A DNA stretch of 64,000 bases from Heliorestis convoluta (GTDB lineage: Bacteria; Bacillota; Desulfitobacteriia; Heliobacteriales; Heliobacteriaceae), in contig NZ_CP045875.1 of assembly GCF_009649955.1 (NCBI RefSeq), forward strand, positions 849,501 through 913,500, given 5' to 3'. The position numbers and the translations under genes were made by a program. Below the pieces are notes generated by a model. That model was not told the DNA's origin. It did not search any database and was given only the letters and a program-made list of their open reading frames with translations. Of this stretch, positions 16,091-20,666 are shown one piece after another; the first letter of the stretch is position 1; each line of letters opens with the position of its first letter.

Positions 16091-17104
16091 GTGTTTCGAA
16101 AGTACAAGCGTCAGCTCTTATGGCTTGCCGGTCTTTTTGCCATCGCCATGGCAGCTCTGCTCATTACAGTGCTCGCATCCTGGCATCACTGGGCCGCTGG
16201 CGTTGCTGTGCTTGTAATAGCACTAGGCGGACTGGCTCTCTTAGATCAGACGCAGCGCGTCAAAGGAGATCTGGAAGAGACCATAGAAAAAATGGAGGAA
16301 AAAATCGAACTCGCTCACGTGGAGCTCCTATCCCATCTGCCTGTTGGCCTTGCCTACATTGATGCAGGTGGTTACCTGATCTGGCACAATCCCGAGCTAG
16401 GTCGCATCCTAGGTCGAGAAGGGCAGAAATTGCAAGGAAAAATACGCAATTACTTACCAGAGCTACACTTCAAGAAGAACTCTCGTTTTAGCGAACTCCT
16501 CTCCTCCCGCCTTGTAATTGGCGAAAGACTGATGAAAGTATCCCTCTATCCAGGTCCAGGCAAAGAAGCACGCATTCTTACTTTTGACGATGTAACAGAA
16601 CTCGATCAACGTGTAGCCCGAGAAGAAGGACCTGTCATCGGCATCTGTCTCATCGACAACTTTGCCGAAGCTGTCTTGCCTTTAGAAGAAGAAGACAAAT
16701 CGGCCGTGCTGGCAGAAATCGACAAAATCCTCGGCGAGTGGGCCTTGAGCATGGACGTATTCTTACGCAAATTTGCCGAAGATCGCTACGTTTTACTGAT
16801 GACAGGATCGAGCCTCCGTCATTGCCAGGCCCATAGCTTCGAAATCCTCGATCGAATTCGCACCATTGAACGGGCCAATAAGATTCCAGTAACCTTAAGC
16901 ATTGGTATCGGTGCCGCTGAAGAATCGATGGTCGATCTAGGCAGACTGGCACGGACGGCTGTAGACCTAGCCTTAGGCCGTGGCGGCGATCAAGTCGTTG
17001 TTAAAACAGTAGAAAAAGTATACTTTTACGGTGGCAATACGGAAGCCGTTGAAAAAAGAACTCGAGTTCGGGTGCGAGTCGTTGCTCGCTCCCTAAAAAC
17101 TTAA
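16091..17104 (+). CDS. gdpP: GdpP N-terminal half: membrane, PAS-like and degenerate GGDEF domains
   Basis: The first 337 residues of the c-di-AMP phosphodiesterase GdpP (YybT). Two membrane helices (about 7-53) are followed by a short coil, a PAS-like sensor (about 78-165) and a degenerate GGDEF domain (about 175-325). The frame ends at TAA 17102-17104 exactly where the linker to the catalytic DHH domain should continue (RVRVRVVARSLK). The DHH half lies in the -1 frame (17131-18063). Reading back one base in the A5 run at 17095-17099 would join them into a normal protein of about 656 residues. GTG 16091 follows AAGGTGA. Confidence 0.85.
   Translation: MFRKYKRQLLWLAGLFAIAMAALLITVLASWHHWAAGVAVLVIALGGLALLDQTQRVKGDLEETIEKMEEKIELAHVELLSHLPVGLAYIDAGGYLIWHNPELGRILGREGQKLQGKIRNYLPELHFKKNSRFSELLSSRLVIGERLMKVSLYPGPGKEARILTFDDVTELDQRVAREEGPVIGICLIDNFAEAVLPLEEEDKSAVLAEIDKILGEWALSMDVFLRKFAEDRYVLLMTGSSLRHCQAHSFEILDRIRTIERANKIPVTLSIGIGAAEESMVDLGRLARTAVDLALGRGGDQVVVKTVEKVYFYGGNTEAVEKRTRVRVRVVARSLKT
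17092..17104 (+). other. Frame-change site in gdpP (A5 run before the stop codon)
   Basis: The 0 frame reads CTA AAA ACT TAA; the -1 frame reads AAA AAC TTA ATC and continues into the DHH domain. A lysyl-tRNA on AAA can re-pair perfectly one base back within the A5 run. It is not a full X-XXY-YYZ heptamer. Confidence 0.6.
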
Positions 17105-17130
17105 TCTACAGTGCGGAAAACATCATTGTC

Positions 17131-18063
17131 ATGGGCCATGAAAACGCCGATCTAGATGCCGCCGGGGCCGCTTTCGGTTTGGCACGAGCCATTAAAGCTA
17201 TGGGCAAGCCCGTCACCATTCACCTCGACAACCGAGGCGGTGCCCTAGAAAACCTTTTTCAGCTAATACAAAAAAACGAGAGCTTAGCAAAGCTTCTCGT
17301 CACTGGCGAAGAAGCGCTTGCCTCCGCCGGAGAAGGTACCTTGCTGATTGTCGTTGATACCCATAAGCCCTCCCTTTTGCCCGTACAATCGATCCTAAAA
17401 AAAGTCGACAAAGTTGCTATTATCGATCACCATCGTCGAGGTACCGAATCCATTGAACCAAACAGCCTGCTCTACATCGAAGCCTATGCTTCATCCACCT
17501 GTGAACTCGTCGCCGAATTGATTCAATACCTCGACGAAGAAATAGAACTCGGTAGACTCGTCGCTTCCGCACTCTTAGCAGGTATCACCGTTGACACAAA
17601 GAATTTTGCCTTTATGACAGGTGCTAGAACCTTTGAAGCCGCCTCTTACTTACGCAGAAGCGGTGCAGAACCACAACTTGTGCAAGCCATCTTACGAGAT
17701 CCCCTCGATACAGTCGTACGCCGAGCTGCCATTATCAAAGACGCAGAAGTCTACTACGACAACATAGCCATAGCCATACAACCAGAACAAACAACACGCT
17801 CAGCCGTCATAGCTGCCCAAGCCGCTGATGCACTCCTAGAAGTGGCCGATATCAAAGCATCCTTCGTATTGCGCCCAGAAGGCAAAGGAACAGCCATCTC
17901 AGCGCGCTCTCATAATGAAATCAACGTCCATGCCATTATGGAACGCCTCGGCGGAGGCGGTCACCTCACCATAGCGGGGGCCCAACTGCCAGATTGCACA
18001 CCCCAAGAGGCAAAAGAACAGTTAGTTAGAGCCATCGAAGACTATTTTCAACAAGAAGAATAA
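17131..18063 (+). CDS. gdpP: GdpP C-terminal half: DHH-DHHA1 cyclic-di-AMP phosphodiesterase
   Basis: 310 residues carrying the catalytic DHH domain: GHENADLDAAGAA, VDTHKP, IDHHRRG, then the DHHA1 domain with the GGGGHLTIAGA motif. The full enzyme hydrolyses c-di-AMP at the membrane. The in-frame sequence just upstream (NLIYSAENIIV before MGHENAD) is the conserved linker and first beta strand, so ATG 17131 is not a natural start, and no ribosome site precedes it. Expression as a fusion by -1 frameshifting, a real mutation, or a base-call error are the options. If translated alone it would lose its membrane anchor and sensors. Confidence 0.85.
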   Translation: MGHENADLDAAGAAFGLARAIKAMGKPVTIHLDNRGGALENLFQLIQKNESLAKLLVTGEEALASAGEGTLLIVVDTHKPSLLPVQSILKKVDKVAIIDHHRRGTESIEPNSLLYIEAYASSTCELVAELIQYLDEEIELGRLVASALLAGITVDTKNFAFMTGARTFEAASYLRRSGAEPQLVQAILRDPLDTVVRRAAIIKDAEVYYDNIAIAIQPEQTTRSAVIAAQAADALLEVADIKASFVLRPEGKGTAISARSHNEINVHAIMERLGGGGHLTIAGAQLPDCTPQEAKEQLVRAIEDYFQQEE

Positions 18064-18095: not shown

Positions 18096-18542
18096 ATGAA
18101 AGTAATCCTACAAGAAGACGTAAAAAAACTAGGCAAAAAAGGCGACATCGTCGAAGTCAAAGAAGGCTACGGACGTAACTTCCTCATGGCCCGCGGTCTC
18201 GCTTTGGAAGCGAATAAAGGAAATATGAACACCTTAGAAAGACAAAAAGCCAACGAAGCAAAACGAAAAGAAGAAGAACTAGCAGCCGCAAAAGCCCTGG
18301 GCCAGAAACTACAAGGAATTACAGTGACCATCAAAGCCAAAGCAGGCGACGGTGGACGTCTTTTTGGTGCTGTTACGAACAAAGAGATCGCCGAGACTTT
18401 GCAGAAAGAGAAAGGGCTCAAGATTGATAAGCGGAAGTTAGAACTAAAGCAGCCCATTAAAGCTTTGGGGCTTTACACCATCACCGTTAAAATTCACCCT
18501 GCTGTCTCTGAGGAACTAAAAGTGCAAGTTATCTCCGAATAA
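18096..18542 (+). CDS. rplI: Ribosomal protein bL9
   Basis: 148 residues with the classic opening MKVILQEDVKKLGKKGDIVEVK and EGYGRNFLMARGLA, a long connecting helix (about 40-75) and the C-terminal rRNA-binding domain. It binds the base of the L1 stalk in the 50S subunit. AAGGAGG precedes ATG. It follows gdpP by 32 nt, the standard Firmicutes order. Confidence 0.98.
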   Translation: MKVILQEDVKKLGKKGDIVEVKEGYGRNFLMARGLALEANKGNMNTLERQKANEAKRKEEELAAAKALGQKLQGITVTIKAKAGDGGRLFGAVTNKEIAETLQKEKGLKIDKRKLELKQPIKALGLYTITVKIHPAVSEELKVQVISE

Positions 18543-20640: not shown

Positions 20641-20666
20641 TGTCTTTCTAGAAGGTGGAGGGTACA

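Follow-up and report, generated by a model that had tools for sequence, protein, structure and literature searches.

The deposited chromosome of Heliorestis convoluta HH writes the gene coding for the c-di-AMP phosphodiesterase GdpP in two reading frames, which raises the question of whether the split belongs to the cell or to the assembly. The sequence studied (the window; 64,000 nt) corresponds to positions 849501-913500 of the single-contig chromosome (CP045875; 3,218,981 bases).

Geometry and conservation of the gdpP split

The two pieces of gdpP and the elements at their junction are listed in Table 1. The A run at the junction is exactly five residues long. Frame 0 reads CTA AAA ACT TAA, while the DHH frame reads AAC TTA ATC from position 17098, a shift of -1. 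Counted from its first ATG, the second frame codes for 310 aa and is open throughout. Piece 1 matched the Pfam family GGDEF_GdpP (E = 4.5e-29) and, under its cut-off, PAS_4; the membrane segment was seen by eye in the translation. Piece 2 matched DHH (E = 1.7e-23) and DHHA1 (E = 4.3e-14), and also solved GdpP-type DHH/c-di-AMP phosphodiesterase chains (5xsi, E = 1.8e-65; also 9n0l). The GGDEF_GdpP part and the DHH-DHHA1 catalytic part are therefore both encoded, in the order PAS-GGDEF_GdpP-DHH-DHHA1 of GdpP/YybT proteins. Judging by translation, the neighbours are presumably rplI (at 18096), a gene for a Lon-like protease and dnaB (at 20655). With rplI alongside and dnaB downstream, the gene order would be a further likeness to GdpP/YybT.

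Table 1. Features of the gdpP locus (window coordinates) and remaining chromosomal sites of the 14-mer described in the next section
Feature	Position	Strand	Remarks
gdpP piece 1	16091..17104	+	GTG start at 16091; 337 aa; TAA stop at 17102-17104; membrane segment, PAS-like part, degenerate GGDEF part
gdpP piece 2	17098..18063	+	-1 frame; last part of the linker, then the DHH/DHHA1 phosphodiesterase; first ATG at 17131
A5 run, site of the frame change	17095..17099	+	shorter by one base than its counterpart in the sister species
Hairpin immediately 5' of the A5 run	17070..17093	+	MFE -15.3 kcal/mol; probably incidental
Other eight 14-mer sites (chromosome)	135167, 646553, 790188, 1114376, 1114390, 1339279, 2400577, 3084147		

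Alignment with the DNA of the sister species showed one single-base gap only, at the A5 run, and the protein sequence across the junction (SLK followed by NLIYSAENIIVMGHENADLD, compared with SLKNLIYNAENVIVMGHENADLD in the sister) lost no residue. An earlier note on this DNA had described two intact halves in frames 0 and -1 at these coordinates, joined by an unbroken linker, and both observations were borne out. The note had also suggested checking whether relatives keep the same frame change. A search with the DHH half found gdpP in seven of eight family relatives, each time as an unbroken frame of 660-703 aa, so that all seven with the gene encode a single polypeptide, unlike the H. convoluta assembly. 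The eighth, with an 87% complete genome, gave no gdpP match but distant DHH and GGDEF matches only. A more distant Clostridia MAG carries the gene as a single 677-aa frame. Judged from these comparisons, the split is limited to the H. convoluta assembly among the genomes searched.

The pN/pS ratio against the sister species was 0.164 for piece 1 and 0.131 for piece 2, the median for 270 unbroken orthologues being 0.169. Both halves thus show ordinary values, which argues against long decay; with pS around 0.7, synonymous sites are near saturation and the test rules out an old break only.

454 remnants and frame changes in the assembly

According to the available text of the genome paper, strain HH, a phototrophic heliobacterium, was sequenced by Roche 454 GS20 (14x) and Illumina GAIIx (35x) and assembled with Velvet, and 22 putative pseudogenes were counted (PMC7143216). 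The mutS gene of this assembly, which proved decisive for judging its quality, is also read in two frames, the break being a 14-bp insert (chromosome 641277-641290). Of seven relatives, six have an unbroken mutS and one has it cut by a contig end. Including a shared T, the insert reads TCAGAGACGCACTC, in which the barcode MID3, AGACGCACTC, comes directly after the 454 key TCAG. A table in the accessible part of PMC4725846 gives the key as tcag and GS-MID03 as agacgcactc. MID3 is documented on the 454 GS-FLX in the accessible part of PMC4036018, and the available text on H. convoluta names the GS20 (PMC7143216).

The same 14-mer is present at nine exact sites in the H. convoluta chromosome, against about 0.02 (0.024) expected, while a reversed-pattern control gave none; no copy was found in seven family relatives. 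Two copies lie head to head at chromosome 1114376-1114403. None of the nine chromosomal sites falls at gdpP or anywhere else in the window. The gdpP locus shares with a 454 artefact an A-run change in a chromosome that holds exact TCAG plus MID3 remnants, and differs from the untrimmed sites in that gdpP itself has no remnant. At the level of the assembly, 454 data were used and technical errors are present.

Broken mismatch repair was considered as a source of the frame changes, mutS being in two frames and mutL open. This idea was rejected: since the mutS insert matches the sequence of 454 key and MID3 exactly, the cell itself probably has an intact mutS, which removes the ground for a mutator. 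Separately, a second MutS-family gene (chromosome 2578545-2579501) has a 702-aa frame, against 790-1001 aa in relatives, possibly reflecting another frame change.

The frequency of frame changes was surveyed by reading 647 ORFs of the sister species (659.5 kb of its sequence) on 852 kb of the H. convoluta genome. Requiring at least 80% chained coverage gave 290 orthologues, and 306 in the reverse reading; this survey replaced an earlier, smaller one at 70% coverage (174 and 189 orthologous ORFs). Raw frame changes affected 15 of the 290 ORFs in H. convoluta (16 changes) and six of the 306 in the sister (p = 0.044). After curation by eye the counts were 9/290 and 0/306, respectively (p = 0.0014). 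The six H. convoluta rows dropped comprised one change within the last 15 residues, one at an ambiguous divergent end, two before the probable true start, one in an antisense shadow ORF and one repeat hit at a locus already counted. All six reverse rows were dropped: they comprised upstream extensions or non-coding sequence, short ORFs of doubtful status, and one ORF that is the truncated counterpart of a counted locus.

The nine curated genes are gdpP, those for YyaC, two serine recombinases, a DSHCT helicase, spore photoproduct lyase, RNase J, a YaiI/YqxD protein (with two nearby indels) and a MacB-type permease. Five of the nine changes lie at A runs. The RNase J change was examined as a possible break in an essential gene, but the genome also has an intact paralogue and the case is not decisive. 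None of the nine is known to be strictly essential; true mutations would give the same picture, which counts against an error, though nine genes are too few to tell. The change in the DSHCT-type helicase gene (chromosome 847890), a single base relative to the sister, lies about 1.6 kb before the window, and the gdpP break follows it at a distance of 18.7 kb.

This complete Heliorestis genome thus appears to hold 454 key and barcode remnants, one of them splitting mutS, together with an excess of frame changes, so claims of missing or broken genes in H. convoluta need checking first. The literature searched, which lay mostly outside subscription papers and included the accessible parts of PMC7143216 and PMC13209566, mentions neither the gdpP split nor the mutS break nor the barcode remnants.

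Explanations for the split

Because the assembly holds 454 barcode remnants and excess frame changes, a sequencing error is the best supported explanation. The missing base relative to the sister, the single open frames of the relatives and the ordinary conservation of both halves also speak for it. The deposited sequence does contain the split, but quite probably the cell does not: it would be an uncorrected 454 sequencing or assembly error, the 454-based assembly having called the A run one base short, and the cell would carry one ordinary full-length gdpP. We infer that the base in question is one of the errors of this assembly, and of the readings that the earlier note had offered it is the base-call error that gains most from these data. 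As biology, the split is then probably ordinary. Some points count against an error. Neither gdpP nor the rest of the window holds a remnant, five or six A in a row are not a long run by 454 standards, the 35x Illumina coverage should have corrected many such errors, and true slippage mutations prefer the same runs.

The main rival, itself unlikely, is that the HH culture used for sequencing had recently acquired a true slippage mutation that inactivated full-length gdpP. The product would be a membrane sensor lacking the catalytic DHH part, and c-di-AMP would rise only partly, PgpH being retained. Mutations in gdpP do occur in other Firmicutes, according to the accessible part of PMC8715439. 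In H. convoluta, a PgpH-type 7TM-7TMR_HD gene (739 aa) is open, as are two genes for DAC cyclases; the conservation of both gdpP halves would fit a recent event, and the dispensable spore genes among those with frame changes (YyaC and spore photoproduct lyase) are what a laboratory-kept strain would be expected to lose. However, a mutational origin would require many independent recent changes in one lineage and none in its sister, in an assembly that demonstrably contains technical sequence. The earlier note had suggested that a mutation might lead to high c-di-AMP. Its gene identity and frame geometry stand, while the predicted rise is weakened: with PgpH intact, a second hydrolase family would remain, and a real gdpP break would not abolish c-di-AMP hydrolysis.

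That the DHH half is a protein of its own, re-initiated at ATG 17131 after the TAA ending at 17104, is extremely improbable. This ATG is close behind the stop and in frame with the DHH part, but only a weak GGA-type match was seen upstream of it by eye, and no relative has a split gene. Starting there would also remove the NIIV stretch ahead of the GH motif, which is aligned from residue 29 of the solved chain. The removed stretch is presumably the first strand.

It is also highly unlikely that the cell makes full-length GdpP as a minor product beside a truncated sensor, whether through ribosomes that shift by -1 at A_AAA, in a leaky or a programmed way, or through RNA polymerase slippage aided by the hairpin. 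In the P site, AAA could pair again after stepping back one base, and a stop lies close behind; the A-site codon, however, could not. The site reads C_CTA_AAA_ACT and lacks a slippery X_XXY_YYZ heptamer, two downstream windows folded no better than shuffled sequences in a test of pseudoknot-free structures (z = 1.36 and -0.16), no SD-like stimulator was seen by eye at the frame change, and no conserved split or signal was found in the relatives compared. The programmed reading of the earlier note is thus disfavoured.

The hairpin speaks for slippage. It ends one base 5' of the A5 run, and none of 200 shuffles was equally stable. An equally stable hairpin was found at only nine of 6141 runs of at least five A (852 kb) and in 43 of 6000 random 41-nt windows, although this folding window was picked post hoc, after the fold had been seen; a smaller sample of 767 A runs, with the folding window one base off, gave none. 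However, the hairpin was absent from both relatives folded, as was the split, and in a 61-nt window the fold at the gdpP site was ordinary, with 0.133 of random windows (13%) as stable. The accessible part of a report on Citrobacter tssM describes a gene likewise interrupted after an A run and read by polymerase slippage; the run there has 11 A, against five in gdpP (PMC4256274). A genuine hairpin-A5 element at which polymerase or ribosome slips, tuning the ratio of DHH-less GdpP sensor to full-length hydrolase, accordingly seems very improbable. The hairpin was also considered as an error hot spot and rejected, since the other eight frame-change sites share no strong hairpin. The fraction of random 61-nt windows at least as stable ranged from 0.016 to 0.898 across the nine sites.
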